A stretch of DNA of 39,447 nt from an uncultured Bacteroidales bacterium (GTDB lineage: Bacteria; Bacteroidota; Bacteroidia; Bacteroidales; Bacteroidaceae), in the NCBI GenBank assembly GCA_902779165.1, contig CACZAN010000031.1, positions 1 through 39,447 on the forward strand, read 5' to 3'. This document shows positions 15,449 through 37,429 of the stretch, piece by piece. The first letter of the stretch is position 1. Every line of letters starts with the position of its first letter. The notes beneath the pieces are model-generated. The model was not told where the DNA came from. It was given only the letters and a program-made list of their open reading frames with translations, and ran no database searches. Made by a program: the position numbers and the translations under genes.

Positions 15449-15482
15449 ATGCTTTTAATTTTTCAATGTTCACTATTCAATT

Positions 15483-17048: not shown

Positions 17049-17121
17049 AATCGTAATTTACAATTTGACGATTTACGATTTACAATGTGCAATTAGATAT
17101 TTGCGATTATCGGTTTACGAT

Positions 17122-18201: not shown

Positions 18202-18206
18202 ATTTT

Positions 18207-18238
18207 GATTTGACGATTTGACGATTTGACGATTTGAT
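18207..18238. repeat. 8-bp tandem repeat (gatttgac x4) between gldK and gldL
   Basis: Three exact and one near-exact copy of gatttgac lie in the 111-nt gap between gldK and gldL, with further single copies at 18253-18260. Related words recur in the gldL-gldM gap (17050-17120) and in the PUL gap at 32251-32270. Confidence 0.8.
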
Positions 18239-18312
18239 GATTTTCGACCTTCGATTTGACGACCTTACTATGTTATTGTGAAATGGTGAAACCGTCAAAT
18301 CGTGAAATAGGT

Positions 18313-19764: not shown

Positions 19765-19822
19765 TATTTTGCTGAATTATATCTCTTGTATTGATATCTT
19801 AATATATGTCTTTTCTCTTTTC

Positions 19823-20770
19823 TTACAGGAGTCTCACACTTTGGTGTTTGTTCCTCCCCTTCTTGAAGAGGTCCAGATTGGTGATGTATCCGAGGCTGAT
19901 TTCGTGGGTGCCTTGTAGGGCACCAACCCCTGAAGTATAGATCTCATAGCAGTATCCCAGCTGTATGCCTTGGAAGGTGCCTCCGATGAATACTGATGTG
20001 GAGATCGTGGGGCTGTAACCCACACCTGCGTACATCTTTCCTTTGGGGCCGTCGTAGAGGAGTCTTGCCGTTATGTCGCCTCTCCAGGCGGACAAGTCAG
20101 AACGCACAATAGCTGAGGTCTGCATTTTAAATAACGGATTTTTAAACCGAATATTGTATCCACCCGTTAAATAAAATGTCGCAGGCACTTTATATTCGTT
20201 CGCTTTTGTGTCTCCGAGGGTTACCATGGGTGATAAAGTATGCAGCATAGAGAAGCCTGCATACCACACCTTGCCATCGTAGCGAAGCCCTGCATCGAGG
20301 TCGAAAGCTGTGCCGTTGACATCAGAGGAGGGAAATGCATTGTCACCAGGGGTTTCAAGCTCCAGACCAGAACCTTTGAAGCCTTCGGCAAGCATTGCCA
20401 CACGCACTCCAGCACTTAATCGTCCGCCCCATAGATTATGGTGGTAGGCGTACTGAGCATAGAACTTTTTGTGCTCAAAAAGACCGATTTTATCGTTTAT
20501 GAATCCAGCTCCCACGCCATGCGCCGGGCTGATCATCCAAAGGGGAATATCGGCCGTGATAATCATGGTGGCAGGAGCGTGGGTGTAGCCCAACATCTGC
20601 AAGGCGTAGCCGCCGTGAACGTCCAACTGTCCTTCTAATCCGGATGCTGCAGGGTTATAGAACGACTGAAACGCCCAATAGTGGTTGAACGACGGGTCAT
20701 ACTGTGCCTGTGCAGGAATAGCCAGGCAAAGCACGAAAAAGGCGGTAGAAAGAATCTTTGAACAGCTCAC
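19823..20770 (-). CDS. porP: PorP/SprF-family type IX secretion outer-membrane protein
   Basis: The open frame extends to 20830, but that upstream part overlaps a near-consensus promoter (20800-20831), so translation must begin further in. GTG at 20770 gives SCSKILSTAFFVLCLAIPAQ, a good signal peptide, and a product of about 315 residues. The mature part has the PorP/SprF hallmarks: YDPSFNHYWAFQSFYNPAAS, then GYTHAPATMIITADIPLWM, GVGAGFINDKIGLFEHKKF, YDGKVWYAGFSMLHTLSP, and a barrel ending in GTHEISLGYITNLDLFKKGR. PorP-type proteins help to attach or secrete T9SS components at the outer membrane. It is the first gene of the porP-gldKLMN operon. Confidence 0.9.
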   Translation of the reverse strand: MSCSKILSTAFFVLCLAIPAQAQYDPSFNHYWAFQSFYNPAASGLEGQLDVHGGYALQMLGYTHAPATMIITADIPLWMISPAHGVGAGFINDKIGLFEHKKFYAQYAYHHNLWGGRLSAGVRVAMLAEGFKGSGLELETPGDNAFPSSDVNGTAFDLDAGLRYDGKVWYAGFSMLHTLSPMVTLGDTKANEYKVPATFYLTGGYNIRFKNPLFKMQTSAIVRSDLSAWRGDITARLLYDGPKGKMYAGVGYSPTISTSVFIGGTFQGIQLGYCYEIYTSGVGALQGTHEISLGYITNLDLFKKGRNKHQSVRLL

Positions 20771-20799
20771 TGTGCGATGTTTACCCTTAAAATCGACCG

Positions 20800-20831
20800 C
20801 AAAGGTAGGAAATATCAGTGGATGTGCCAAA
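20800..20831 (-). promoter_or_regulatory. Main promoter of the T9SS operon
   Basis: On the minus strand TTTG (20828-20831), 20 nt, then TACCTTTG (20800-20807): an excellent match to the Bacteroidetes consensus. Transcription would start near 20794, leaving a short leader before GTG 20770. Confidence 0.75.
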
Positions 20832-22065: not shown

Positions 22066-25000
22066 ATGAGTCAAATTCTGTCAAAATCGAGGCACCTTAA
22101 TCAGCTGATTAGACAGGCCTTATCCGCTATTTTGATGCTTTTTGCATTCAGCTCTGTGCTGTATGCTCAAGAAGGCATCACTGTTCGGGGTACTGTCATC
22201 GACGATACAGAGGAACCTTTGATAGGTGCTTCGATTAAAGTGAAAGGAAAGACTGGAGTGGGTACTGTAGCCGACATGGATGGTAATTTCCAACTGACGG
22301 TGCCCTCAGAGCAGTCAGTACTGGTGTTTTCCTATGTAGGTATGTCCTCCAAGGAAGTGAAGGTTGGTAAGCAGCGCAACTTCAAGATTACGCTCGAAGA
22401 CAACACCCAGATGGAAGAAGTCGTCGTTGTGGGTTTCGGCCAGCAGAAGAAGGTTTCCGTAGTGGGCGCTATCACACAGACTACTGGCGAAGTCCTTGAA
22501 CGTTCCGCGGGTATTGGTAGTGTCGGTGCAGCCCTCACAGGTAATCTTCCCGGTGTTGCTACTATCGCATCATCAGGTCAGCCCGGTGAAGAGGATCCCC
22601 GCATCTATATTCGTGGTGCGTCGGCTTGGAACCAGGATGCACAGCCTCTGATCCTTGTCGATGGCGTCAAGCGTGACATCAAGTCCGTGGATATCACCTC
22701 AGTAGCTACAATCTCCGTGCTAAAGGATGCATCCGCCACCGCCGTGTACGGTGTGGAAGGTGCTAACGGTGTTATCCTTATCACGACGAAACGTGGTGTG
22801 GAAGGCAAGGCCAGAATCGATGTCGGTTTCAACGCCACATTGAAGGCTGTTTCCAAGCTCCCGCGCAAGTACGACTCTTATGATGGATATATGCTACGCA
22901 ATCAGGCTATCGAGCATGAACTTGCCCTCGGTGGCGATGCTTCCTGGGCGTTCTATCGTCCGCAATCCTTCATCAATAACTTCCGTAATCAGGATTACAC
23001 CGTGAAGCCTCAGTATGATGCCAGCGGCAGCTATCTTGGTGACTACAGTCAGGCGGAGCGCTATCCAAACGTAGACTGGCAGGACGAAATGTTCAAAACG
23101 ACCGCCATGTCATACAATGCGAATCTCAATCTGTCTGGTGGTACGAATTTCGTGAAGTACTTCGTAGCCTTCGACTTCCAGAACGAAGGTGATATGACCC
23201 GCATGTGGGATAACCACCAAGGTTATGAAGGTGGTTATGCTTATAATCGTTTGAATGTACGTTCGAACTTAGACTTCCAGATAACGAAGACGACCCAGTT
23301 CAAGGTGAATCTGGCAGGCTCTAATGCCCAGCAGAAGACCCCACGTTATTATTGGGGTAACGGTAATAGTGGTGATCAAACAAAGGACATGTTCTTCCAG
23401 CAGCAAAAATGGTCTGGTGCCTATAAGATGGCGCCCAACCTCTTCCCCGTTCAGTTCTCCGACGGTTCCTGGGGTTATTATCCTTTGGTTTCCAACATTG
23501 AGAACTCTCCTCAGAGTGTTGCAACGTGTGGTTATGAGCTGAAGACCATCACTCGCGTTTACACCGACTTCGCACTTGAACAGAAACTGGATTTCATCAC
23601 GCCCGGACTTGTCGCACGCGGTACGGTCTCTTGGGATAACCAGTTCAATGAGGGGTCTCGCGGTATTACTGACCAGCATACTCCTAAGAGAGCTTATATG
23701 ATTCCTGAGGACGGTCAGATGATGCCTGAAAACCTGATTGATGCTAAGACGGGATTCGACTTCTACGAAAGTCGCGACTGGGATGATGTGGCAGGTAGTG
23801 TTAGTTATACGGGCCGTGCTACCGAAGTCTCCCTTCAGCTCTATTGGGGCCGTCAGTTCGGCGATCACAATGTATCGGCTATGGGTAACTGGAAACGCCG
23901 TACCAACGCAGGTGGCACCGAGTTGGAGAATCGCCGTGAGGACTGGGTGTTCCGTACCACTTATGACTTCAAGAGCCGCTACTTTGCTGAATTCAATGGC
24001 GCTTACAACGGTTCCCAGAGGTTCTCGCCGGATAACCGTTTTGCCTTCTTCTGTTCTGGAGCTGTCGGTTGGATGCTCTCGGAGGAGAAATTCATGAAAT
24101 GGTTCCGTGACAAGGGAATCATTGATATGTTCAAGATCCGCGGTTCTATCGGTGAAATCGGTGATGACAGTGCGGGTAAACGCTTTGCTTACCTGACAGA
24201 GTGGAAAGTGGTAGGTCCCTTTAAAGTGACTGTTGACAATTCCAACAGCCCGTTTACGGGATACCAGGAATCGGGTATTGCAATGCCTGATCTTCGCTGG
24301 GCTACTGTGTCGAAGAAGAATATCGGTGCAGATTTCGCCTTCCTGGGCGGTATGATTGCAGGTAGCTTCGACTGGTTCCGCGATGACCGTTATGATATCT
24401 TTATTTCCGGTGTCGAACGTTCTGTACCTTCCTTCTACGGTGTTTTGACTACTCCCGATATCAATAAAGGTAAGATCAAGAACTCTGGTTTCGAATTAGA
24501 GCTCCGTTTCAACAAGGTGTTCAACAACCGCATGCGTTTATGGGCAAACGGCAGCTACACGTACGCGCACAATACCATTATTACTAAAGATGACCCCGAA
24601 TTGATTCCAAGTTACCGTAAGGCTCAGGGTTATTCCAATGGCCAGTACCATTCGTATATCGACAACGGCTTTATCGGTTCTTACGACCAACTCTACAGTA
24701 CTCCTGAACGCGAGAAGGACGACAACCAGGTGCTCATCGGAGACCACTACATTGTAGACTTCAATGGTGATGGCAAGGTAGACGAGACCAACGACCAGGC
24801 TCCTTATGGCTACACGGGAACTCCGGAGCACACTTACAATGCCACCATCGGTTGGGAGTGGAAAGGATGGAGCATTTTCGCTCAGATGTATGGTGTAACG
24901 GGTGTTACGCGTGATGTCACGCTCACCACGTTCAACGATAAGCTTCTCACCGCATACGATACAGGTAACTGGTGGAATCCTGCAGATGGGACAGGTGAAG

Positions 25001-25287
25001 TTGTTGTACCACGCTACACGACTCAGGTTTCATACAACAATGGTACCCAATTCCTCTACGACGGCTCCTATTTCCGTTTGAAGAATGTGGAAGTCGGTTA
25101 CACTTGGACTAAGGGTTGGATCCGGAGACTCGGTTTCACAAGCCTGAAGCTTTACCTGAATGCAAACAACCTCTTCCTCATCACCAAGATGCCTGACGAC
25201 CGCGAGAGCAACTATGGCTGGAGCGGCAGCGGCGGTGCTTACCCCACAGTTAGGCGTTATAACTTCGGATTTAAGCTTTACCTTTAA
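22066..25287 (+). CDS. SusC/RagA-family TonB-linked outer-membrane transporter (PUL pair 1)
   Basis: 1073 residues. Signal peptide (LSAILMLFAFSSVLYAQ, cleavage at about residue 35), then a carboxypeptidase-regulatory-like domain at about 38-115 (GITVRGTVIDDTEEPLIGAS, then YVGMSSKEVKV). A TonB-box-like stretch with MEEVVVVGFG follows. The plug at about 120-240 includes LTGNLPGVATIASSG, IYIRGASAWNQDAQPLILVD, and VLKDASATAVYGVEGANGVI, then LITTKRG. The 22-strand type barrel includes DFNGDGKVDETNDQAPYGYT and ends in YNFGFKLYL. SusC proteins import glycan oligosaccharides across the outer membrane with the SusD lid encoded 11 nt downstream. First gene of the PUL operon, preceded by TACATTTG. By gene order it corresponds to xusA in Prevotella xylan loci; the substrate assignment is inference. 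Confidence 0.95.
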   Translation: MSQILSKSRHLNQLIRQALSAILMLFAFSSVLYAQEGITVRGTVIDDTEEPLIGASIKVKGKTGVGTVADMDGNFQLTVPSEQSVLVFSYVGMSSKEVKVGKQRNFKITLEDNTQMEEVVVVGFGQQKKVSVVGAITQTTGEVLERSAGIGSVGAALTGNLPGVATIASSGQPGEEDPRIYIRGASAWNQDAQPLILVDGVKRDIKSVDITSVATISVLKDASATAVYGVEGANGVILITTKRGVEGKARIDVGFNATLKAVSKLPRKYDSYDGYMLRNQAIEHELALGGDASWAFYRPQSFINNFRNQDYTVKPQYDASGSYLGDYSQAERYPNVDWQDEMFKTTAMSYNANLNLSGGTNFVKYFVAFDFQNEGDMTRMWDNHQGYEGGYAYNRLNVRSNLDFQITKTTQFKVNLAGSNAQQKTPRYYWGNGNSGDQTKDMFFQQQKWSGAYKMAPNLFPVQFSDGSWGYYPLVSNIENSPQSVATCGYELKTITRVYTDFALEQKLDFITPGLVARGTVSWDNQFNEGSRGITDQHTPKRAYMIPEDGQMMPENLIDAKTGFDFYESRDWDDVAGSVSYTGRATEVSLQLYWGRQFGDHNVSAMGNWKRRTNAGGTELENRREDWVFRTTYDFKSRYFAEFNGAYNGSQRFSPDNRFAFFCSGAVGWMLSEEKFMKWFRDKGIIDMFKIRGSIGEIGDDSAGKRFAYLTEWKVVGPFKVTVDNSNSPFTGYQESGIAMPDLRWATVSKKNIGADFAFLGGMIAGSFDWFRDDRYDIFISGVERSVPSFYGVLTTPDINKGKIKNSGFELELRFNKVFNNRMRLWANGSYTYAHNTIITKDDPELIPSYRKAQGYSNGQYHSYIDNGFIGSYDQLYSTPEREKDDNQVLIGDHYIVDFNGDGKVDETNDQAPYGYTGTPEHTYNATIGWEWKGWSIFAQMYGVTGVTRDVTLTTFNDKLLTAYDTGNWWNPADGTGEVVVPRYTTQVSYNNGTQFLYDGSYFRLKNVEVGYTWTKGWIRRLGFTSLKLYLNANNLFLITKMPDDRESNYGWSGSGGAYPTVRRYNFGFKLYL

Positions 25288-25298
25288 TAGTAAATATT

Positions 25299-27341
25299 AT
25301 GAAAGATTTTAAGAACATAAAATCCCTTTTATACGGTTCGCTTCTCCTGCTGGCCTGCGGTGTATGCTTTACTTCCTGTACCTCTTGGCTTGATAAGGAT
25401 CCGGATTCTATCGTGGCAGAGGATGAGGCTTTCAAGAACTACCGCAACTTCCAGGGATATCTCGAGGAAATCTATGACTGCATCCCCAACAAGGAGATGG
25501 CCAACTATTGTACATCCTGGAACTGGGGAGACGACGCTGTTCACAACCCCGAAGGTTATGCACACATGGATCACCAGGTGGACCTGGGCAACTACCGTAA
25601 CTGGTGGGATAATGGTCAGTGCTGGCTGAATGGTGCCGGCAAAGACGGTTCTTGGGCAAATAAGTATTCCCTTTGGAAAGGTGCATGGTACAGTATCCGT
25701 AAGTGCAATTTGGGTCTTGCGAACATCAAGTCCCTCGTTGGAACAGATGAAGAGCGCGACCTGCTGCTCGGACAGATGTATTTCTTCCGTGCTTGGTGGC
25801 ATTTCGAGCTGATATGCTACTTCGGCGGTCTTCCTTATGTGGACGAAGCTTTCGAAGCTTCCAATATTCCAGAACTCCCTCGCCTTTCTTTCCAAGAATG
25901 TGCAGACCGCTGTGCACAAGACTTCGAGCGGGCCTACGATCTTCTTCCATATGACTGGGACGAGACCCTGGCCGGTATGCAGACTTCAAGCCAGAATGAG
26001 CTGCGCGTGAATAAGTTTATGGCACTTTGCTACCTCGGCAAGTGCTACCTCTGGGCAGGCTCTCCGCTTATGAAGGAGTTCGAGAAGACCAAGAACGGCG
26101 GCGTGGCCCAGCTGTTAGGTGCCAGTTCCAACGGCAAAACCTACGATTATGATGAGGCATATTGCAAGTTGGCTGCAGAGAAGCTTGGTAAGGCACTGGA
26201 TCTGGTCAAGAAAGGAACGGTACGCTACAAACTTGCAGAATTCAAGTACTCCAACCTCTACGACCACACGAAGGAGGAGTCAGCAGAAGATTGCTACTCC
26301 GACCTCTTCTATACCGTTAAGCAGAGCTGGAAGCAGCCTGGTGCTTCAGAGGCCATCTTCCGCGGCCTGTCCCAGACTGACGACTGTAACTGGAACTGCT
26401 CCAAGATTTTCGGTCCCAAGGTTTTGGGTATTGTGCCTCACGACAACATTATCCACCACCCGACAGCCAACCTCATCGACCAGTACGGAATGGCCAACGG
26501 TCAGCCCATTTATCTTGTCAAGAACGGTGTCTATGTGCTGAACCCTGCTGCTGGTTTTGATCCTGAACATCCCTATAAGAACCGCGACCCGCGATTCTAC
26601 CATGATATCGTGTTCGACGGTTTCCACTATGTGCTCAACACCGAGAATTTCACCGATGCCCAGAAGAAGCTGAATCTGGACTACTGTTCCCTTTATTCCG
26701 ATGGCGCCATGCGTGATATCGACCACGGAAGCAGCACCGGTTATTTCATTCAGAAACTGGTGCCCCACCAGTGTAACGAATTAGACCGTTGGTGCTATGG
26801 ATGGGAAGGCAGTAACTTCCACTGCTATCTCTCCTACATGCGTCTGGCTGACATCTATCTGATGTATGCAGAGGCAAGGGCCGCTATTGCTAAGAGTGCT
26901 GCTGAATTGAAGGATAAGCCTGAATATTGCCCGTCATTATCTGCCGTTGACGCCATCAACGTCCTCCGCGACCGTGTCAACTGCGAAGATTATCCCATGG
27001 AACATGTTCAGCCCAACCTCATGGACACCCGTGAGCACTTCATCGATGAAGTACGCCGCGAGCGTGCCGTAGAGCTCTCCTTCGAAGGCTTCCGCTGGTG
27101 CGACCTTCAGCGTTGGTTGCTCCTGACCGAGCCTCCCTACACGGTGAAGTACTCTCATGAATTCGAGCGTCTGGAGACTAATGACTGGTTCAAGACCCAC
27201 GATCCGAAGGATGCAAAGGTCGGTAACTTCCACAAGAAAGACCTTATTACCCGTCGTTTGGAATCCAAGCACTATTGGTTCCCGCTTCCAGACAAGGATA
27301 CCTACCTCTACCCAGGCTTCCCCCAGAATCCAGGATGGTAA
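25299..27341 (+). CDS. SusD/RagB-family glycan-binding lipoprotein (PUL pair 1)
   Basis: 680 residues, somewhat long for SusD. Lipoprotein signal with lipobox CFTSC (about residue 27), followed by acidic TSWLDKDPDSIV, as expected for surface-exposed lipoproteins. SusD hallmarks are helical TPR-like segments (GQMYFFRAWWHFELICYFGG, then LPYVDEAF; NKFMALCYLGKCYLWAGSPL) and the C-terminal signature NVLRDRVNC, REHFIDEVRRERAVELSFEG, FRWCDLQRWLL. It forms the extracellular lid of the SusC transporter encoded upstream and binds the polysaccharide. Aromatic-rich surface loops (SWNWGDDAVHNPEGY; RWCYGWEGSNFHCY) are candidates for glycan contact. Confidence 0.95.
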   Translation: MKDFKNIKSLLYGSLLLLACGVCFTSCTSWLDKDPDSIVAEDEAFKNYRNFQGYLEEIYDCIPNKEMANYCTSWNWGDDAVHNPEGYAHMDHQVDLGNYRNWWDNGQCWLNGAGKDGSWANKYSLWKGAWYSIRKCNLGLANIKSLVGTDEERDLLLGQMYFFRAWWHFELICYFGGLPYVDEAFEASNIPELPRLSFQECADRCAQDFERAYDLLPYDWDETLAGMQTSSQNELRVNKFMALCYLGKCYLWAGSPLMKEFEKTKNGGVAQLLGASSNGKTYDYDEAYCKLAAEKLGKALDLVKKGTVRYKLAEFKYSNLYDHTKEESAEDCYSDLFYTVKQSWKQPGASEAIFRGLSQTDDCNWNCSKIFGPKVLGIVPHDNIIHHPTANLIDQYGMANGQPIYLVKNGVYVLNPAAGFDPEHPYKNRDPRFYHDIVFDGFHYVLNTENFTDAQKKLNLDYCSLYSDGAMRDIDHGSSTGYFIQKLVPHQCNELDRWCYGWEGSNFHCYLSYMRLADIYLMYAEARAAIAKSAAELKDKPEYCPSLSAVDAINVLRDRVNCEDYPMEHVQPNLMDTREHFIDEVRRERAVELSFEGFRWCDLQRWLLLTEPPYTVKYSHEFERLETNDWFKTHDPKDAKVGNFHKKDLITRRLESKHYWFPLPDKDTYLYPGFPQNPGW

Positions 27342-27391
27342 ACCGATGGCAATAGAAACTTGATAATGGATCATTGAAAATCGACAAGTAT

Positions 27392-30382
27392 ATGAAAAGA
27401 ATAAGAACAAACATATTTCTCTTTGCCATGTTGGCAGCTTCGCCGGTTACGGTCGATGCCCAGTCCACCGCCGATGCTGACTCCGTTCTGGCAATAAAGA
27501 AAGTCCATGTTGCTTTCCGCGACAAGGATGCCGACCAGCTGCTTGGAGGTATCTCCTATGTGGACATGGAAGAGCTGCAGAAGAAGGATTACACGATGGG
27601 TAGTCTCGATGACCTGTATGCTCTGGTTGGCGGTTGGACCGGCAACAACCTCTGGGGTATGGACAATGAGCGTCTCGATAATAACGACAACAACAACATG
27701 CCGCTCGTGATTATCGATGGTGTGAAGCGCCCCTCCAACAACGTGCTTCCTTCAGAAATCGAGCAGGTGACTTTCCTCAAGGGTGCACAGGCTGTGGTGC
27801 TCTATGGTGCTAAGGCTGCCAAGGGTGCTATCCTTATCACCACCAAGCGCGGTAAGGTGGACGGCCTTCAGATTGTGGCCAACGCCAACACGGGCTGGCA
27901 CGTGGCAAAGGAATATCCCGAATATCTCGGTTCTGCAGAGTACATGACACTCTACAACGAAGCCCTTGCCAACGATGCACGTGCCTTAGGCAATCCCTAC
28001 GCTCCGAAGTATACTCAGCAGGATATCTACAATCATGCTTCCGGACAGAACCCCTATCGTTATCCGAATGTGAACCACTATTCCAACGAGTATATTCGCA
28101 AGGCTTACAACCGAACCGAAGGTACGTTGGAGATTCAGGGTGGCGGCTCCCGTGCCCACTTCTATACGAATGTGAACTACTATCGCATCGGCGACCTCCT
28201 CAACTACGGTGTGGCAAAAGACAACTACACCGATCGTTTCAGCGTTCGTGGTAATGTAGACCTCGTCATCAACGAGTATATTAAAGGTTTTGCCAATGCA
28301 AGTGCTACCTTCTACAATGCCAACAAGAACAAGGGAGACTTCTGGGGTGAGGCTGCTACCATGCGTCCGAACTTCCCCGAGAACGCTGCTCCGTTGATTC
28401 CCATTGATATGGTAGACCCCAACGCCAGCAAGGCTCTTGCCATTCTCGCCAAGTCCCTGAACCTGCTCGACGGCAAGTATTTCCCTGGTGGCACCAAGAC
28501 CACGCAGACCAATGCGATTGCCAGTGGCTACTTCGCTGGTAGGAGCCGCGACATCAGCCGTCAGTTCCAGTTCGATGCCGGCATCATCTACGACATGAAC
28601 AAGTTCGTAAAGGGCTTGTCCTTCAAGACCCAGTTCGCTATTGACTATGCAGCGAACTACAACCTCCAGTACGACAACAAATACGCTGTGTTCATTCCCA
28701 CTTGGAGTAACTACAACTCAAAGGATGTCATCGTAGGTCTTACCCAGCAGAACGATGAAATCGTGACAGGTAATATGACGATGGATAATGCTTCTACCAA
28801 CTATCGTCAGACCATCAGCTGGAACGGTCATTTCGACTACGACCACACCTTCGGTGGCAAGCACCACGTCACGGGAATGCTGCTCGCAAATATGTTTACT
28901 ACCACTTCCAGCGGTCAGTACCACCGCTACGCCAATGCCAACCTGGGCCTGCAGGCAGGCTACGACTTCATGGGCCGTTACTTTGCCGATGTGACCTTGG
29001 CCGGCGTTCATTCCGCCCGTCTTCCCAAAGGCCATCGCAATGCCATCTCTCCCTCTTTCACCCTCGGTTGGAACATTGCCAAGGAGAGCTTCATGGAAGG
29101 AAGCCACATCAGCGACCTGATGCTCAGCGCCTCCTACAGCAACCTGAACGAGGACATTGATGTATATATGGGTGATAAATATTTCTATCTCTACGAGCCC
29201 CAGTGGTCAACAGGCGACGGTAGCTTCGTATGGAACGAATCTACGAACACGAATATCACCTATTCCACCAGCGGTAGCAACCCCGCCCTCGACTTCGTTC
29301 ATCGCAAGGAATTCTCTCTTAGCCTGCGCGGCTCGTTCTTCGACAGGCTGCTCTCTGCAGAACTCACCTTCTTCAATACGAATCTGGACGGCTTCATCAT
29401 TCAGAACCCGACCTCCTTCCCATCGTACTTGCAGAGTGGTCTCGTCACCGGAGCTACCTTCAAGCCAGCCATCAACAATAACATTCAAAACCGCAAGGGT
29501 CTTGACTTCAGCATTAAAGCCCGTAAACAGTTTGGTGAGGTTTACGCCGAATTAGGATTTGTAGGTACATATTTTACGACAGAGTGGAAAAAGTATGATG
29601 AAACCTTAGATCCTGCCGCACCCAACAAATACACTGAGGGACAAGCCCTTAATGCTCTCTGGGGTTACAACTGTTTAGGCTTCTACTCTGAAGACGAGTT
29701 CGACAAGGATCCCACCACAGGTAAGCTCACGCTGAAGGCCGGTCTCCCCAGCTCGAAGATTGGCGGTACCATCCAGCCGGGTGACCTGAAGTATGAGGAT
29801 GTTAATGGCGATGGCATCATCAATAACCAAGACATGATCGTCATTGGCAAGTCGGATCGCGTTGTCGTTTTGGACAAAAACGGTAATCCGGATTACAGCA
29901 CTGGCTTGGGCAGAATTGGTTCTCCTTTCACGATGGGTATCAACCTCACGCTTAAGTACAAGAACTTCACCCTCTTCCTTATCGGAAATGGCCAGTTCGG
30001 TGGCTACGGATTAAAGACGGACTTGGGTAATTACTACTATATGAGTGGTGATAACAAGTACTCTGTCAATGCACTTGGCCGTTGGACGGCAGAGACCGGC
30101 GATGCGGCTACTCATCCTCGTTTGAGTGCTCAGGGTTCGGCTCATAATGCTGCTGCATCCACCTTCTGGTTGTACAGCACCAACCGTTTCAACCTCCGCA
30201 AGATACAGCTTACCTACGACTTCCCGAAGACGTTGATGGGTAAGGTTGTCAAGGATCTCTCCATCTATCTGAATGCCAACGACCTCTTCACGATAGCCTC
30301 GGAGCGTAAGCTTATGGAGACAAACATCGGTTCCGCCCCGCAGACCCGCTTCTATAATCTCGGTGTGAAGGCCACCTTCTAA
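27392..30382 (+). CDS. SusC-family outer-membrane transporter lacking the N-terminal regulatory-like domain (PUL pair 2)
   Basis: The frame opens at 27374, but ATG 27392 (MKRIRTNIFLFAMLAASPVT) starts the signal peptide; 996 residues. After the signal peptide there is only a short segment, with no carboxypeptidase-regulatory-like domain, before the plug. The plug includes DLYALVGGWTGNNLWGMDNE, then PLVIIDGVKRPSNNVLPSEI, TFLKGAQAVVLYGAKAAKGA and ILITTKRG. The barrel contains DVNGDGIINNQDMIVIGKSD and ends RFYNLGVKATF. It pairs with the SusD encoded 36 nt downstream of its stop. Missing the N-terminal domain may change how TonB engages it or how it associates with partners. In the xus layout this is the xusC position. 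Confidence 0.93.
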   Translation: MKRIRTNIFLFAMLAASPVTVDAQSTADADSVLAIKKVHVAFRDKDADQLLGGISYVDMEELQKKDYTMGSLDDLYALVGGWTGNNLWGMDNERLDNNDNNNMPLVIIDGVKRPSNNVLPSEIEQVTFLKGAQAVVLYGAKAAKGAILITTKRGKVDGLQIVANANTGWHVAKEYPEYLGSAEYMTLYNEALANDARALGNPYAPKYTQQDIYNHASGQNPYRYPNVNHYSNEYIRKAYNRTEGTLEIQGGGSRAHFYTNVNYYRIGDLLNYGVAKDNYTDRFSVRGNVDLVINEYIKGFANASATFYNANKNKGDFWGEAATMRPNFPENAAPLIPIDMVDPNASKALAILAKSLNLLDGKYFPGGTKTTQTNAIASGYFAGRSRDISRQFQFDAGIIYDMNKFVKGLSFKTQFAIDYAANYNLQYDNKYAVFIPTWSNYNSKDVIVGLTQQNDEIVTGNMTMDNASTNYRQTISWNGHFDYDHTFGGKHHVTGMLLANMFTTTSSGQYHRYANANLGLQAGYDFMGRYFADVTLAGVHSARLPKGHRNAISPSFTLGWNIAKESFMEGSHISDLMLSASYSNLNEDIDVYMGDKYFYLYEPQWSTGDGSFVWNESTNTNITYSTSGSNPALDFVHRKEFSLSLRGSFFDRLLSAELTFFNTNLDGFIIQNPTSFPSYLQSGLVTGATFKPAINNNIQNRKGLDFSIKARKQFGEVYAELGFVGTYFTTEWKKYDETLDPAAPNKYTEGQALNALWGYNCLGFYSEDEFDKDPTTGKLTLKAGLPSSKIGGTIQPGDLKYEDVNGDGIINNQDMIVIGKSDRVVVLDKNGNPDYSTGLGRIGSPFTMGINLTLKYKNFTLFLIGNGQFGGYGLKTDLGNYYYMSGDNKYSVNALGRWTAETGDAATHPRLSAQGSAHNAAASTFWLYSTNRFNLRKIQLTYDFPKTLMGKVVKDLSIYLNANDLFTIASERKLMETNIGSAPQTRFYNLGVKATF

Positions 30383-30418
30383 TTCGAATGGACAATGGAT
30401 TATTGCAAATTGAATATT

Positions 30419-32239
30419 ATGAAGACAAGAAATATTTTAATGCTTTTCATCGGGGTTCTCGCATTCTGCTCCTGCGACGATATGTTCGTTCCGGCAGATG
30501 AGAACAACCGACAGACAGAAGATATGACCGAGGAGTCGAAGTATGCCAATGGTCTGCTGATGTACGCCTACGACCGTCTTCCCTATCAGACGGTCACCGT
30601 GACGGACGTTGCCACCGATGATGCTGTCACCAACGTGAAGAACAGCAATTATCTGTATATGGCAACAGGTTCATGGTCCGCCGACAACAACCCGATGTCT
30701 CAGTGGGACAACTGCCGGGATGGCATCCAGTATGTCAATCTTTTCCTCTCCATCGTGGAGGATGTCAAGTGGGCTCCCAGTGCCGTTTCCAAGCAGCAGA
30801 TGTTTGTCGATCGCCTGAAGGGCGAGGCACTTGGCCTGCGTGCACTCTTCTATTACTATCTGTTGCAGGCTCATGGCGGTTATGCCGACGATGGCAAGCT
30901 CTATGGTGTGCCCCTGCTCACGAAGCCTGAAGACGGTAGCTCGGACTTCAATCAGCCCCGTGCCCTCTTTGCCGACTGCGTGAAGCAGTGTTTTGCCGAC
31001 TGCGACAGCGCTATGGCCCTGCTGCCGTTCGATTATGTGGACGTCGACACTATTAGTGAAATTCCTACAAAGTATCTGAATCTTGGTGCCCAAAAGACCG
31101 GTTACAATCTGGTATTCGGTGCCCGTTCTTCAGGTCTGTTCTCCGGAAAGGTTGCTGAGGCTCTCAAGGCTCAGATTGCCGTTCTTGCTGCCAGCCCTGC
31201 CTTCCGCGATGACAGCGGAGTATCTTCCGAGGACGCCGCAGCGCTCTGTGCTGCTGTGCTCAAGCGCATCGGCGGTATGGCCGGATTCGACAAGACCGGA
31301 AACATCTGGTACAAGAATAAGACCAAGTTGGAGCCGGGTGCCGCCGAGATGCCCGAAATCCTGTGGCGCGAAGGGCGTTCTGGCAAGGATTCCCGACAGG
31401 AACTTACCAACTTCCCGCCGTCGCTGTATGGTAACGGTGAGGTCAATCCCTCTCAGAACCTCGTAGATGCCTTCCCCATGCGCAGCGGTCTTCCTATCAG
31501 CGATCCCAACTCCGGCTACGATCCCAACGATCCTTATGCAAACCGCGATCCGCGTCTGGCAGACAATGTCCTCTACAACGGCACCGTCTTCCGTAAGGCT
31601 CAGATCATTACTGGAAATTATCCAAGTGATGATAAGGAGACGGAGGACAGCCTTAACGCCACCGATAAATCCACCCGTACGGGCTATTACCTGAAGAAGC
31701 TCCTTCGCGATGATGTGAATCCCCTGGCCAGCAATCAGATTGCACAGTACCACATCTTCCCTCGCATCCGCTACACAGAGATCTTCCTGGATTATGCAGA
31801 GGCTGCCAACGATGCCTGGGGACCGAAGCTTGACCCGAAGGGCTTTGGCTTCACCGCCTACGACATCATCAAGGCCATCCGCGAGCGTGCCGGCTTAGGT
31901 ACCGACGCCATCGGAATGCCCCTTCCTCAGGGCGATGCCTATCTCGAGGCTTGTGCCGCAAACCAGGCTCAGATGACCACTCTGATCCGCAACGAGCGCC
32001 GCCTGGAGCTCTGCTTCGAGAACAAGCGTTTCTGGGATATGCGCCGATGGATGCTGCCACTTAACGAATCGGTGAAGGGTATGCGAATCAATCGCGATGA
32101 GACCACCAAGGCGCTCTCCTATTCAATTTTTATTGTGGAGGATCGCAACTTCGACAGTTCCTACCAGTGGTACGGACCTATTCCAAAGAGCGAAGTGCTC
32201 AAGTGGAGCAAGCTCGTGCAGAACAAAGGTTGGAAGTAA
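30419..32239 (+). CDS. SusD/RagB-family glycan-binding lipoprotein (PUL pair 2)
   Basis: ATG at 30419 is preferred over 30395 because it gives a compact lipoprotein signal (NILMLFIGVLAFCSC, Cys at about residue 18) followed by acidic DDMF; 606 residues. SusD features are KGEALGLRALFYYYLLQAHG, then GYADDGKLYGVPLLTKPED; FPRIRYTEIFLDYAEAANDA; IKAIRERAGLG; and TLIRNERRLELCFENKRFWD followed by MRRWMLPLN. It pairs with the upstream SusC. A 41-nt gap with aaatcgt-type repeats separates it from the next gene. Xus position: xusD. Confidence 0.95.
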   Translation: MKTRNILMLFIGVLAFCSCDDMFVPADENNRQTEDMTEESKYANGLLMYAYDRLPYQTVTVTDVATDDAVTNVKNSNYLYMATGSWSADNNPMSQWDNCRDGIQYVNLFLSIVEDVKWAPSAVSKQQMFVDRLKGEALGLRALFYYYLLQAHGGYADDGKLYGVPLLTKPEDGSSDFNQPRALFADCVKQCFADCDSAMALLPFDYVDVDTISEIPTKYLNLGAQKTGYNLVFGARSSGLFSGKVAEALKAQIAVLAASPAFRDDSGVSSEDAAALCAAVLKRIGGMAGFDKTGNIWYKNKTKLEPGAAEMPEILWREGRSGKDSRQELTNFPPSLYGNGEVNPSQNLVDAFPMRSGLPISDPNSGYDPNDPYANRDPRLADNVLYNGTVFRKAQIITGNYPSDDKETEDSLNATDKSTRTGYYLKKLLRDDVNPLASNQIAQYHIFPRIRYTEIFLDYAEAANDAWGPKLDPKGFGFTAYDIIKAIRERAGLGTDAIGMPLPQGDAYLEACAANQAQMTTLIRNERRLELCFENKRFWDMRRWMLPLNESVKGMRINRDETTKALSYSIFIVEDRNFDSSYQWYGPIPKSEVLKWSKLVQNKGWK

Positions 32240-32280: not shown

Positions 32281-33468
32281 ATGATGAAACTCAAGAAATA
32301 CATATTCGGAGTAGCTCTGGGAACGCTCTCTCTCACGATGGTTTCCTGCTATAATGCAGATACCGACTTCCCAGACTTTGAAGGGGGCACCACAGCTTAC
32401 TTCGCATACCAGGACCCAGTACGTACTGTCGTTCTTGGTAACGATGTCTATGACAACTCGCTCGACAAAGCCCATAAGATCCAGATCTGGTCTACTATGG
32501 GCGGAGCCTACGGTGGCCGCGATGCAACCGTCAGTTTTGTCGTCGACACCACCCTCTGCAACAACCTCTACTTCGTGGATGAGGGCGGCAACCCCGCAGG
32601 CAAAGTGACCCCAATGCCGCAGAAATACTACAACCTCGCGTCGGATGTCATTACCTACAACGGCGATCCTCGCGGCTATGTGGAAGTGCAGCTCACCGAT
32701 GCATTCTTCGCTGACCCCAAATCCGTCGAAAACACCTATGTCATTCCTCTCTTGATGACCGATGTGAAGGGCATCGACCATATTCTTCGAGGCACCCCGC
32801 GCGAAGGCCTCAATCCTTCACGCACCAACACCGAGGACTGGGATGTACCGGCCAAGGACTATGTGCTGTACTGCGTGAAGTATATGAACCCCTGGCAGGG
32901 AAAATACATCCGCCGCGGTGCTGACCAGGTGACGGAGAACGGTGTCACCACCACCATCCTCCGCAAGGACACCACCTTGGTGAATACCGATGTCGAGCAC
33001 TACAAGGAGAACCCTGTGAACCATAAAGATGAGATCTGCGGCATCACCACCAAGAACATGACCCAGTCGATCTTCTCCGTTTCCGTCCGCCGTGCTGCCA
33101 ACAAGGCTTCTGTGCCCTGCAAGCTCACCCTCACATTCGATAACAACAAGTGCACCATCTCCTCTGATGATACCGATGTGACTGCTACAGGTACCGGTGA
33201 ATTCATCGAAAATGGAAGCGGACTGCCCGCATACAAGGACTATCAGTGGGCTGGTGTCGGTGAGCCTGACAAGCGCGACATCCTGCGTCTGGCTTACACC
33301 GTAAACATCAACAAGGGCAAGGTCATCGGTAAGGATGACAAGGGCAACGACATCCTCCTCGAGAACGACATCCAGGTGACCACTGCCGACACCCTGGTTA
33401 TTCAGACCCGCGAATCCAACAAGCGTGAGTTCTTCTCACCCAAATACGTAACCCCTGCAAACCCTTAA
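32281..33468 (+). CDS. Surface lipoprotein of the DUF1735/DUF5627 type (SusE/XusE-position glycan-binding protein)
   Basis: 395 residues (ATG 32281 or the adjacent ATG). Lipobox LTMVSC followed by YNADTDFPDFEGG. The N-terminal half reads like a DUF1735 (BT_3987-type) domain: DKAHKIQIWSTMGGAYGGRD, then VVDTTLC and VTPMPQKYYNLASD. The second half has VPAKDYVLYCVKYMNPWQGK and YIRRGAD, which fits the DUF5627-like families found in PULs. Such lipoproteins follow susCD pairs and act as surface glycan-binding proteins. It is in the position of xusE. I assign the domains from memory of their wording, so the exact Pfam boundaries need checking. Confidence 0.7.
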   Translation: MMKLKKYIFGVALGTLSLTMVSCYNADTDFPDFEGGTTAYFAYQDPVRTVVLGNDVYDNSLDKAHKIQIWSTMGGAYGGRDATVSFVVDTTLCNNLYFVDEGGNPAGKVTPMPQKYYNLASDVITYNGDPRGYVEVQLTDAFFADPKSVENTYVIPLLMTDVKGIDHILRGTPREGLNPSRTNTEDWDVPAKDYVLYCVKYMNPWQGKYIRRGADQVTENGVTTTILRKDTTLVNTDVEHYKENPVNHKDEICGITTKNMTQSIFSVSVRRAANKASVPCKLTLTFDNNKCTISSDDTDVTATGTGEFIENGSGLPAYKDYQWAGVGEPDKRDILRLAYTVNINKGKVIGKDDKGNDILLENDIQVTTADTLVIQTRESNKREFFSPKYVTPANP

Positions 33469-33483: not shown

Positions 33484-35166
33484 ATGAAAACAAGTTTCAA
33501 TTTTTCGACTTTCAACTTGAAAGCAGGTCTCTTCGCGTTGGCCGTAGGAGCGCTCATGGCTTCCTGTGCCGACTATAATGTGACAGATGATTTCAAAGCC
33601 GAGCCGGATCCCACCTTCGTGGAGCCCTACAAGGACTATGGTACCGTCAAGTCATACCTCAACCGCGAGGCCTATCCCAATATGTCACTCGGCGCACAGC
33701 TTAAGGTGGCAGAGTTCAACAAGCAGGAGCTGGCCCATGCTGTCGCTATCACCAACTTCGACGACCTCGCATTCGGCACGACTCTGATGTCTGGAACCAT
33801 CGTCAATGCCAAGGGTATCATGAACTTCCTCGATATGAAGGATCTTCTCGACCACGTTCAGGAAATCGGAGGCAAGGTGTTCGGCAGTCCTATCGTGGCC
33901 AATGCCAACCAGGCCGACGACTGGTTGAATATGCTCACGGCTCCCATCGAGATCCCTGTGGATTACGTCGAAGGCAAGAGCGTGAACTTCAACGATATGA
34001 GTGTTGGTCCCTACACCGGTACGGCAGAAAAGGGCACTCCCACCATTGAGAAATACGACGACCAGAATACCCTCAAGATTCCCCTGTTGGGCAGTGTCAA
34101 CATCATCGAAGGCTTCGAGGTCGACTCCCTTGCCACCTATACCATCACCTTCTGGGCAAAGGCCGACAAGGACGCTACATTCAACATCACCTTCTCCGGC
34201 AACAAGGTCAACGGTTCCGGTCCTAACGGAGCCTGGACGTTCAAGTCTGGCAAATGGACCAAGATTGTTGTAGAAGCCAAGAGTGCCGGCGGCGTCACCG
34301 ATGGTTACCTCCGGGTAGAGAACACCCGTTCTGCTGTATTCTACATCCAGAAAGTGGAGGTCGGTTACTATCCCGACAACCACCGTGCCCAGACCGAACA
34401 GGAGCTGAAGGACACCATCAACTACGCCCTCAACGCGTGGTGCGATGGTCTGATGAAGATCAACGAAGGCCGCATCACCTCCTTCGACCTCATCGACGAG
34501 GCTATCGACACCAAGGCCACCCTGGCGAGCAACGGCCTCTATGACCTCAAGCACTCCACCGACAAGATCTTCTGGCAGGACATCCTGGGCAGCGAGCGCT
34601 ATGCTCCCGAGGTTTCGAGAGTGGCCAGCGCCGCCTACAAGACCCACGGCGGCGACCCCGAGAAGCTGAAGTTCTTCATCAGCGAGTCCGGTCTCAATGA
34701 GCAGAAGAAGTTCGAGAGCCTGAAGTACTGGATCGAGGTGTGGGACAAGAATGGAGCCAAGATCGACGGCATCAATGCCAAGCTGAACCTCACCTACAGC
34801 GAGGATGCCGCCACGCAGGCCGCCACCGTTGCCTCGCTCAACACCCTCCTCGAGAACCTGGCTAAGTCCGGCAAGCTCATCCGCCTCTCCAACTTCGATA
34901 TCAAGTATCAGGATGCTGATGGCCTTCCTGTTGCATCAGACAAGATCACCGCCGCCCAGCGCCAGAAGCTGGCAGACTTCTATGGTGAGGTCATCACGGC
35001 CTACATGACCAAGATCCCGCACGAGAAGCAGGCCGGTATCTGCAAGGGCAACATGGCCGACACGAGCGATCCCGTGGGCCTCTGGAGCATCGACAGCAAG
35101 AGCAAGGACTGGGTGCGCAATGCCACCTACAAGGCCTTCTGCGATGCGCTGCAAGGAAAGAAGTGA
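33484..35166 (+). CDS. GH10-fold surface lipoprotein with degraded catalytic motifs and an inserted CBM-like domain
   Basis: 560 residues, lipobox LMASC near residue 28. GH10 landmarks are present but altered. Residues 91-102 NFDDLAFGTTLM stand where GH10 has NxxTPGNEMK. Residues 134-148 GSPIVANANQADDWL stand for YGHTLxWHxNQ, so the His and Trp are lost. SFDLIDEAID (333-342) matches the acid/base motif DVVNEA but with D in place of the Asn. IDGINAKLNLTY (428-439) replaces IDGIGxQMHI. IRLSNFDIKY (466-475) replaces ITELDI, so the nucleophile Glu is Asn470. A jelly-roll, CBM4/CBM22-like insertion spans about 155-300 (VNFNDMSVGPYTGTAEKG; TYTITFWAKADKDATFNITF). GH10 enzymes with a CBM inserted in the barrel are known in Bacteroidetes xylan loci. 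I infer a non-hydrolytic glycan-binding protein on the cell surface. Confidence 0.75.
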   Translation: MKTSFNFSTFNLKAGLFALAVGALMASCADYNVTDDFKAEPDPTFVEPYKDYGTVKSYLNREAYPNMSLGAQLKVAEFNKQELAHAVAITNFDDLAFGTTLMSGTIVNAKGIMNFLDMKDLLDHVQEIGGKVFGSPIVANANQADDWLNMLTAPIEIPVDYVEGKSVNFNDMSVGPYTGTAEKGTPTIEKYDDQNTLKIPLLGSVNIIEGFEVDSLATYTITFWAKADKDATFNITFSGNKVNGSGPNGAWTFKSGKWTKIVVEAKSAGGVTDGYLRVENTRSAVFYIQKVEVGYYPDNHRAQTEQELKDTINYALNAWCDGLMKINEGRITSFDLIDEAIDTKATLASNGLYDLKHSTDKIFWQDILGSERYAPEVSRVASAAYKTHGGDPEKLKFFISESGLNEQKKFESLKYWIEVWDKNGAKIDGINAKLNLTYSEDAATQAATVASLNTLLENLAKSGKLIRLSNFDIKYQDADGLPVASDKITAAQRQKLADFYGEVITAYMTKIPHEKQAGICKGNMADTSDPVGLWSIDSKSKDWVRNATYKAFCDALQGKK

Positions 35167-35233: not shown

Positions 35234-37429
35234 ATGAAGAAATTCTTTACTCTGATTGCTCTCCTGGCAATGACCATGGGAGCAAGTGCAGCCGGAGAAT
35301 GGGTACAAGACTACAAGATTGACTACTCATCCAACACCGGCTTCCCGTTCTACGTAATGGGTTATGTGCCCGAATGGTTCGACGGCGTAATGACTGACTT
35401 CGGTGCCAACTACAAGTACGTTGCTACTGTCGATGACAAAGGTAATCCTGCTGAAGAGACCAGCGACGTCATCGTCAAGACCCAGGGTGGTGTCGAGTAC
35501 TACAAGATTGGTCCGCTCGACGAACCCGCATGGCACCAGTATTTCATCGCCGACGGTATCCCCACCGAGCTCGACGGCGCCTACACCGTGAAGGCGATGG
35601 TTAAGGCTTCCGAAGCTTGCACCATCACCGTTAACATGGGTTGGAGCTGGAGCGAGGATCCTAAGAGTGCTCAGGTGGCTATCGGCACCGATTGGGAAGA
35701 GATCGAATGGGAGTACAGCGGCATTGGTGGCGCTTCCTGCAACCTCGTTGCCCAGCCCGGTACCACTACCGCTACCATCGAGTGGAAGTATGTCATCGTA
35801 GGTCACGTCCAGAAGGAACAGCGCCCCGTTGAATGGATCGAGGATCTGGTCAATGGTGATGCTGAGAAGAGCTGGGAAGAGCTCGGCCTTGCTGACGTTG
35901 CTTATAACGACATGGAGAACAACTTCAAGATCTGTGCTTGGGGCAAGGAGAAAGGCCACAACATGGACGAAAATGGCGAAGCTTGGAATCCCTTCCCCGC
36001 TACCATCGGTGAAGAAGAAGTCAATGGCAAGATCAACCACTTCTTCATTGTCAAGGGTCAGCCCGCTACCACCGAGGGCGACGCTTCTTCATGGGACAAC
36101 CAGTTCTGGATCCAATCTCCGAAGGCTTGGAAGGCCGGCACACAGCTGAAGATTCACTTCCGCTACAAGGCTTCCGCTCCCGTCAGCTCCACCGACACCC
36201 AGATCCACAAGCAGACTCCCTCTGACTACCTCATCTGGCACGCTATCGGCAACATCGCCTTCACCGAGGAATGGCAGGAGTTCGATGGCACCATGACCAT
36301 TGCTGACGATATGGCTGAAGGCTGGTCCATCGCATTCAACCTGAACAGCGTTGTCAAGGATGCCGTTGACTTCTACTTCGACGACCTCTCTTGGCAGCAC
36401 ATGAAGCTCGACGAGGGCCTCTTCATTGCCGCTTCCAACACCGAGACCGGCATCGAATATGACTTCGACAACGCTGAAGCATTGGTCTATGATGATGCCG
36501 TTCAGGCTTACACCGCTACCGTTGGTACCAAGGGCGATAAGTCCTCTTGGGTCAATGAAATCATGATCTCCACCGTCCGCGGTAACGATGCTGCCTTCAA
36601 GGGCGCTACCCTGAAGCCCTCTGGCGATTATATCGGCGAGGACAACTGGGGTAACTACACCGCATCCAACCTCGCTAAGATCAAGCTGCCCGCAGCTGGC
36701 GTCTGGACGGTCTATGTCGACACCGAGAACCTCCAAATCAACATCATCAAGATTGAAGGCGACAAGGAGAAGGAACCCATCCAGATCGATCCCAACCCGA
36801 CTGTTGTTGTCGTCAACGGTCAGGAGCGCGACTGGCTCTCTGCAGGTGGTGATGGCAATCCTCGTGAAGACGAAGTCGGTACCGGTGAAACCTGGGACAA
36901 CCAGTTCTTCATCGTTGCCAACCGTGTCCTCGATGCCGGCGAAGTCACCATCCTCGAATTCGACTATGAGAGCTCTGTCGAGGCTAAGACCACCACTCAG
37001 TGCCACGCTATGCCTGGCGGCTACATCCACTGGGGTTGCATCGGCGACGTGAACTTCACTCCCGAATCGCAGCACTTCACCTATACCTTCACCATCCCCA
37101 ACGAGTGCGCTGGCAAGGATATGAAGACCATCGCCTTCAACATGGCTGAGATCAAGGGCGCTTGCGAATACAAGATCTCCAACATCGTTTGGAAGCTCGA
37201 AGACGAGACCGAATCCCTCATCGACCAGACCGGTTCCAAGAACTTCTACGTCAAGGAAGGTGCAGGCACCGATCCTCACGTGTTTGGTGCTGATCCTGGT
37301 GATGCTGTTCTCAGCATCGCTGCTGGCAAGGCTGCTTCCACCGTCACCTACAACCTCGCTGGCCAGCGTGTTACCAGCAACTACAAGGGCATCGTGGTTA
37401 AGAACGGCAGCAAGTATCTCGTAAAGTAA
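35234..37429 (+). CDS. Exported multi-module (CBM-like) protein with a T9SS-type C-terminal tail
   Basis: A frame opens at 35120, but ATG 35234 gives the signal peptide (MKKFFTLIALLAMTMGASAA) after an AT-rich spacer; 731 residues. No catalytic domain is seen. Module 1 (about 22-195) is a jelly-roll-like domain. Module 2 (about 198-392) carries WDNQFWI and YLIWHAIGNIAFTEEWQEF. Residues about 393-510 resemble a SusE/SusF-type domain. Module 3 (about 520-656) repeats the module 2 signature as WDNQFFI and YIHWGCIGDVNFTPESQHF. The end (VTYNLAGQRVTSNYKGIVVK and NGSKYLVK) resembles Prevotella T9SS sorting tails. Last gene of the PUL; probably binds polysaccharide at the cell surface or outside. High use of C-ending codons suggests strong expression. 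Confidence 0.75.
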   Translation: MKKFFTLIALLAMTMGASAAGEWVQDYKIDYSSNTGFPFYVMGYVPEWFDGVMTDFGANYKYVATVDDKGNPAEETSDVIVKTQGGVEYYKIGPLDEPAWHQYFIADGIPTELDGAYTVKAMVKASEACTITVNMGWSWSEDPKSAQVAIGTDWEEIEWEYSGIGGASCNLVAQPGTTTATIEWKYVIVGHVQKEQRPVEWIEDLVNGDAEKSWEELGLADVAYNDMENNFKICAWGKEKGHNMDENGEAWNPFPATIGEEEVNGKINHFFIVKGQPATTEGDASSWDNQFWIQSPKAWKAGTQLKIHFRYKASAPVSSTDTQIHKQTPSDYLIWHAIGNIAFTEEWQEFDGTMTIADDMAEGWSIAFNLNSVVKDAVDFYFDDLSWQHMKLDEGLFIAASNTETGIEYDFDNAEALVYDDAVQAYTATVGTKGDKSSWVNEIMISTVRGNDAAFKGATLKPSGDYIGEDNWGNYTASNLAKIKLPAAGVWTVYVDTENLQINIIKIEGDKEKEPIQIDPNPTVVVVNGQERDWLSAGGDGNPREDEVGTGETWDNQFFIVANRVLDAGEVTILEFDYESSVEAKTTTQCHAMPGGYIHWGCIGDVNFTPESQHFTYTFTIPNECAGKDMKTIAFNMAEIKGACEYKISNIVWKLEDETESLIDQTGSKNFYVKEGAGTDPHVFGADPGDAVLSIAAGKAASTVTYNLAGQRVTSNYKGIVVKNGSKYLVK

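Follow-up and report, generated by a model that had tools for sequence, protein, structure and literature searches.

BACOVA_03431 of Bacteroides ovatus, encoded in PUL-XylL, is an inactive GH10 protein of the cell surface, which lacks the nucleophile and the -2 subsite and binds glucuronoxylan and corn xylan (Rogowski et al., PMC4491172). Its neighbour BACOVA_03430 (PDB 3N91) did not bind (PMC4491172). BACOVA_03431 was the only proven inactive GH10 that our searches of the open PMC literature brought up. According to a 2024 review, a Phocaeicola GH10 is possibly inactive as well (PMC11610566), and in Segatella copri NQ544_12655 is listed as a 'truncated GH10-encoding gene' after a SusC/SusD pair, in a second xylan PUL (PMC11784079), which makes it a candidate for a further case.

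Xylan loci have also been described in which the genes follow the order xusA-E/xyn10C. The CBMs of Xyn10C are placed between beta-3 and alpha-3 of the barrel, and a use of Xyn10C to mark xylan degradation has been suggested (PMC7848910). In Pm25, a termite Xyn10C homologue, the inactivated barrel without CBMs failed to bind wheat bran, whereas the CBMs bound (PMC7848910). BT1284, a GH18-like pseudoenzyme of an N-glycan PUL, gave no measurable glycan binding, and proteins of its type, with substituted catalytic residues, comprise 85 sequences in at least 20 Bacteroidales species (PMC11180146). In the levan system, a GH and an SGBP are lipoprotein subunits on SusC (PMC7618045).

Here we describe a GH10-like gene, named pGH10, from a relative of Prevotella. 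It lies on a draft-genome contig of 39 kb, the whole stretch of 39,447 nucleotides being referred to as the window. The original prediction had read its product as a xylanase fold turned into a surface glycan receptor. pGH10 is almost certainly a catalytically dead descendant of Xyn10C-type enzymes and, by analogy with BACOVA_03431, most likely acts as a xylan-binding subunit of an outer-membrane uptake apparatus. It is not the first dead GH10, BACOVA_03431 being already known, and the idea has a measured precedent, because BACOVA_03431 binds xylan and the XusE-slot protein of the window matches its neighbour BACOVA_03430 (3N91).

A GH10-like lipoprotein in a xylan locus

The window carries a block of genes in the order SusC-SusD-SusC-SusD-XusE-like-pGH10-p769, which matches the order described for xylan loci (PMC7848910). 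It opens with a SusC-like transporter (22066..25287, + strand; TIGR04056, 749.6 bits) and a SusD-like lipoprotein (25299..27341, +; Pfam SusD_RagB), followed by a second SusC-like transporter (27374..30382, +; TIGR04056, 397.7 bits) and a second SusD-like lipoprotein (30395..32239, +; Pfam SusD_RagB). The XusE-slot lipoprotein (32281..33468, +), with the Pfam domains BT_3987-like_N and DUF5627, is a homologue of BACOVA_03430, its sole PDB match being 3n91 (E 2.2e-58). pGH10, an open frame of 560 aa (33484..35166, +), lies directly after it, in the slot of Xyn10C-type enzymes, and is followed by p769 (35234..37429, +), which has 731 aa when read from 35234, its ORF being listed from 35120. p769 is presumably secreted and contains several CBM-like sandwiches that are akin to the inserted CBMs of Xyn10C-type enzymes. 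This arrangement is stable among relatives: all 80 loci have p769 after pGH10, and a XusE-like gene could be located upstream in 77 of them, the other three corresponding to two contig starts and one ORF-calling conflict with an opposite frame. The relatives make up a large clade and come mostly from Prevotellaceae/Bacteroidaceae records, nearly all of them MAGs and many named after ruminants.

The GH10 profile PF00331 matches pGH10 with 44.7 bits (cut-off 22.1, E 1.3e-11), and the predicted structure is a (beta/alpha)8 barrel of the GH10 fold. By barrel and sequence profile, pGH10 fits GH10 as a homology family. A phmmer search of PDB with pGH10 gave no match up to E 10, and its tie to solved structures is by the predicted fold only. 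Between beta-3 and alpha-3 of the model sits an insert rich in beta strands, a CBM-like sandwich (residues ~160-298, 33961..34377, +), whose assignment as a CBM is weak, since CBM_4_9 scores 21.8 bits (E 2.5e-4) and thus below the curated cut-off of 25.9. The protein begins with a putative signal peptide (33484..33567, +) up to Cys28, presumably the lipobox cysteine, a residue kept in 82 of the 83 aligned rows. pGH10 thereby shares with SGBPs the trait of a lipoprotein encoded in a SusC/SusD locus, here one with two SusC/D pairs.

In these respects the original prediction held: it had claimed a GH10 barrel with an inserted CBM as in Bacteroidetes xylanases, a lipoprotein, and the slot of a xus locus otherwise held by the active enzyme. 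The last point is borne out by other members of the window's family, since in 13 of the 15 loci read from them a GH10 whose motifs are intact comes after this SusC-SusD-SusC-SusD-XusE block. pGH10 thus resembles the Xyn10C / BiXyn10A-type xylanases described (PMC7848910) in fold, insertion point and slot after XusE. Unlike them, it lacks the nucleophile, has its subsite residues replaced and carries one divergent CBM-like insert.

Catalytic residues and conservation of pGH10

We aligned 83 pGH10 rows (the window, the loci of 80 relatives from genome contigs, L006 and L007), among which about one is a duplicate, L007 and L025 being probably the same contig. The controls were 37 GH10s, 36 interrupted and one uninterrupted (L192_716), none of them selected by motif; one control fragment of 39 residues gives gaps, so that some columns hold 36 residues. 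The uninterrupted GH10 L003 was misaligned and left out of the controls.

In GH10 enzymes, the catalytic nucleophile is a Glu after beta-7. pGH10 reads S-N-F-D at 469-472 (34888..34899, +), and its Asn470 is found at that column in 83 of 83 rows, against Glu in 37 of 37 controls, so that neither chance nor a sequencing error accounts for it. The Asn-Glu acid/base motif expected after beta-4, present in all 37 controls, is D338-E339 in the window (34495..34500, +). Position 338 is Asp in 79 rows and Glu in four, position 339 is Glu in 77, Lys in four, Gly in one and Asp in one, and the Asp338-Glu339 pair is kept in 74 of 83. The subsite motifs are gone as well. The former NxMK of the -2 subsite reads TTLM (99-102, 33778..33789, +), with Met102 in all 83 rows, at a column where each of the 36 controls that have a residue shows Lys. 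The former HTLxWH of the -1 subsite reads SPIVAN (135-140, 33886..33903, +), with Ser135, Pro136 and Asn140 in 83 of 83 rows and Ala139 in 81, whereas its His, Trp and His are present in 37 of 37 controls. Lys433 (34780..34782, +) stands for the Gln of QMH; both the Gln and the His of this motif are found in every control, and the rows have Lys (78), Glu (4) or Gln (1) at 433 and Asn (68), Ser (11) or Asp (4) at 435. Within K521-G522-N523 (35044..35052, +), position 522, the place of the conserved Trp of active GH10s (Trp305 in Cellvibrio numbering), is Gly in 77 rows, Ala in four and Ser in two, whereas all 36 controls that have a residue there keep the Trp. Three further sequences agree with this picture: L257 and L259 (the latter and L066 probably being one contig) carry the same altered signature, and L258 has Asn470, preceded by Tyr, and Arg at the acid/base position.

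Substitutions thus affect the nucleophile, the acid/base surroundings and the residues of subsites -2, -1 and +1, and most of them are fixed in the clade, so that pGH10 is almost certainly catalytically dead. The original prediction had named SNFD with Asn470, Asp before the acid/base Glu and the loss of both subsite motifs, and had proposed a catalytically dead enzyme; each of the residues it named was recovered here. Of the checks it had proposed, a structure prediction returned the GH10 fold, and comparison with the GH10 alignment placed Asn470 and E339 at the two catalytic Glu positions.

Column 433 showed the highest normalised coupling to 339 (0.80; third by raw mutual information). At 339/433, 77 rows combine Glu with Lys, one has Asp-Lys, four have Lys-Glu (L092, L094, L095, L096) and one has Gly-Gln (L046); L258 has Arg-Glu. 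Because the Lys-Glu rows included in the tree and L258 share one clade, the charge swap would be one event; with Gly-Gln as the second, the changes appear to represent about two events, not six. This covariation is most simply explained by a salt bridge spanning the former active site, in which the old acid/base residue would be locked with residue 433.

The genes are intact and under purifying selection. All 80 relatives have open frames, of 519-578 aa (the shortest ended by the contig end), and dN/dS lies between 0.04 and 0.21 over 10 pairs, similar to the SusD and XusE neighbours, with dS >0.9 in five of the ten. pGH10 is therefore not a pseudogene. Its least conserved part is the CBM-like insert (mean majority frequency 0.67 versus 0.78-0.83 in the other segments), for which the CBMs of the control GH10s offered no convincing match (best E 0.01). 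Positions at which pGH10 is fixed for another residue than the controls were not significantly enriched on the catalytic face (8/20 versus 96/374 barrel positions, p 0.18), nor was the clustering of all conserved positions there significant (37/120, p 0.13). For this reason we do not claim the old cleft as a binding site.

Origin of the altered GH10s after XusE

A GH10 tree rooted with other GH10s, from which the fragment ACT_L167_39 had been removed, included 27 of the 83 pGH10 rows and grouped these as one clade (100/100) on a long stem, inside interrupted GH10s with intact motifs and sister to a Prevotella-type Xyn10C group (94/80). Descent of pGH10 from an active interrupted GH10 is thus supported, as is the enzyme ancestry that had been proposed for it.

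Among the places read from other members of the window's order, a GH10 follows XusE at 38, namely the 15 above and 23 of 49 places with a XusE-like gene examined later, at the other 26 of which, some at contig ends, no GH10 was detected. Motifs are intact at 31 of the 38 places (including the near-copies L191/L305/L306, L252/L304 and L311/L312) and altered at seven, a proportion that is not a rate, because the places came from search matches and some were chosen as unusual-looking. The nucleophile is replaced by Gly in L247, by Asp in L256, L308 and L309, by Ala in L279 and, according to an alignment at 27% identity, by Asp in L303; in L285 it is kept and the acid/base Asn-Glu has become Ser-Asp.

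L256 served as a stand-in for BACOVA_03431, and the comparison uses its sequence. Its genes run SusC-SusD-SusC-SusD-3N91 type-altered GH10-GH30-like, followed by a PF00756 esterase, and its XusE-slot protein scores 489 bits against 3n91. pGH10 resembles BACOVA_03431 as described (PMC4491172) in being a GH10-like lipoprotein with the nucleophile and the -2 subsite lost, two SusC/D pairs and a 3N91-type neighbour. It differs from L256 in having Asn rather than Asp at the nucleophile position, and in its size, 560 aa followed by p769, against 738 aa. With L256 as stand-in, the two losses are apparently separate on the tree of transport genes described next.

In the XusE tree (46 rows: 31 intact, nine of the window clade and six altered, L309 being left out as no XusE frame was found in its stretch), six label changes were counted, five of them forced by well-supported branches. 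With five concatenated transport genes, grouping the window clade with L256 was rejected (AU p 0.005), as was grouping all inactive forms (AU p 2.7e-5); the neighbour-gene results presuppose that GH10 and block have moved together, and would be weakened by gene swaps. The window clade together with L247 was unrejected (AU p 0.10), so these two may share a loss. The GH10 sequences themselves are less decisive. In a tree with all inactive forms (18 pGH10 rows and L257-L259), one branch (88/92) had every active row on the same side. A single loss would be compatible with this topology, which is unrooted, with long branches meeting and a bootstrap that had not settled. Trees of single lineages with an outgroup placed L247 (85/93) and L256 (90/99) among active enzymes and left the place of the window clade among them unresolved; in both kinds of tree some near-identical active rows were omitted.

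There is support, though no final proof, for a repeated conversion at this slot. We lean slightly towards a reading in which the GH10 slot after XusE has repeatedly turned from enzyme to receptor, with about six losses by lineage, p769 providing xylan-type binding modules in trans and the acid/base residue being salt-bridged in the window clade. The proposed separate losses are the window clade, the BACOVA_03431 type (L256/L308/L309), L247, L279, L285 and L303. Such parallel losses, all at the same locus, would offer a way to find out which features are required of a receptor and not of an enzyme. Two loci show GH10s side by side: in L285 another GH10, which keeps NxMK and HTLxWH and is truncated by the end of the stretch, comes after the altered GH10 of the slot, and L283 has two intact-motif GH10s in tandem. 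From these, tandem duplication may have preceded the loss of activity.

Proposed function and genome context

The putative uptake apparatus would consist of the two SusC/SusD pairs, the XusE-like protein, pGH10 and p769. pGH10, presumably anchored in the membrane at the cell surface, a location reported only for BACOVA_03431 (PMC4491172), would hold decorated xylan (glucurono- or glucuronoarabinoxylan) beside the transporters and separate xylanases, the cutting being left to other enzymes. Xylan binding is proposed because BACOVA_03431, in the same slot, binds xylan. The SGBP BACOVA_04391 shares this presumed role and location with pGH10 but is described as three linear beta-sandwich domains, not as an enzyme-derived barrel (PMC4491172).

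Other enzymes are at hand. In L057, L058, L069 and L082, a CBM-insert GH10 with intact motifs lies just past p769, two genes after pGH10 (that of L057 ends with the contig, past the nucleophile), and some cells therefore carry both. A further PF00331 match, as a profile match only, was present in 30 of 30 genomes with pGH10 (28 of the 80 loci plus G055 and G018; G051, the 31st genome of this count, is without pGH10), and the window's own genome has three other GH10s. Two GH10 genes are adjacent in another contig of that genome (L101, G000:C3:28000-46000), possibly a second xylanase cluster. Ten proteins downstream of pGH10, one per locus, were scanned and comprised GH43-CBM6, GH3, GH30-like, GH10, SASA and PF00756 esterases; of L257 and L258, also scanned, the latter has GH115 as well.

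pGH10 could instead bind no glycan and, as a structural pseudoenzyme, fill the dock of the enzyme in the SusCD utilisome and organise the XusE-like protein, p769 and the separate enzymes. SusC2, SusD2, XusE and p769 are constant neighbours in nearly every locus within contig reach, the barrel is better conserved than the insert, and both the lipoprotein subunits on SusC of the levan system (PMC7618045) and BT1284 with its lack of measurable binding (PMC11180146) would suit such a role. Like BT1284 as described, pGH10 is a TIM-barrel glycosidase relative in a PUL, although of another family. We consider this role unlikely, as BACOVA_03431 in the same slot binds xylan (PMC4491172), and keep it in consideration because xylan holding is called into question by the Pm25 barrel result, by an insert that is poorly conserved, by a catalytic face that shows no significant enrichment and by the BT1284 precedent.

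Two readings would retain catalysis or deny function. Adjacent Asp-Glu pairs occur in glycoside hydrolases with substrate-assisted catalysis, such as GH20, and the conservation of Asp338-Glu339 in most rows next to Asn470 might suggest this or another chemistry on a different substrate. Yet residue 339 has become Lys, Gly or Asp in six of 83 rows and Arg in L258, with 433 altered to match in all but the Asp row, and the neighbours scanned are mostly of xylan-type families. Substrate-assisted catalysis was set aside on these two grounds, and a changed chemistry is very improbable. The retention of E339 and the Pfam score above cut-off could also reflect an ordinary active GH10 misread through alignment, and a decaying gene might be imagined. 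The clear alignment with 37 controls, the intact motifs of GH10s in the same loci, the open frames in 80 of 80 loci and the low dN/dS make this the least credible of the readings. Binding of xylan by a dead GH10 thus remains the preferred interpretation. As pGH10 still passes the Pfam cut-off, it could be counted as a xylanase, and the catalytic residues of a GH10 in the slot after XusE need checking before it is used as a marker of xylan degradation.

The xylan PUL is immediately preceded in the window by a gliding/type IX secretion cluster (14306-20830, - strand) with GldN, GldM, GldL, an FGE-sulfatase-domain protein, which we assume to occupy the place of GldK, and PorP/SprF. The short C-terminal tail of p769, NLAGQRV...NGSKYLVK, resembles the tails of several GH10s; it may serve as a sorting signal, in keeping with the type IX genes nearby. 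Elsewhere in the window (800-2284, - strand), a gene encodes a protein with AlbA_2 (Schlafen), HATPase_c_4 and Fic-like C-terminal domains.
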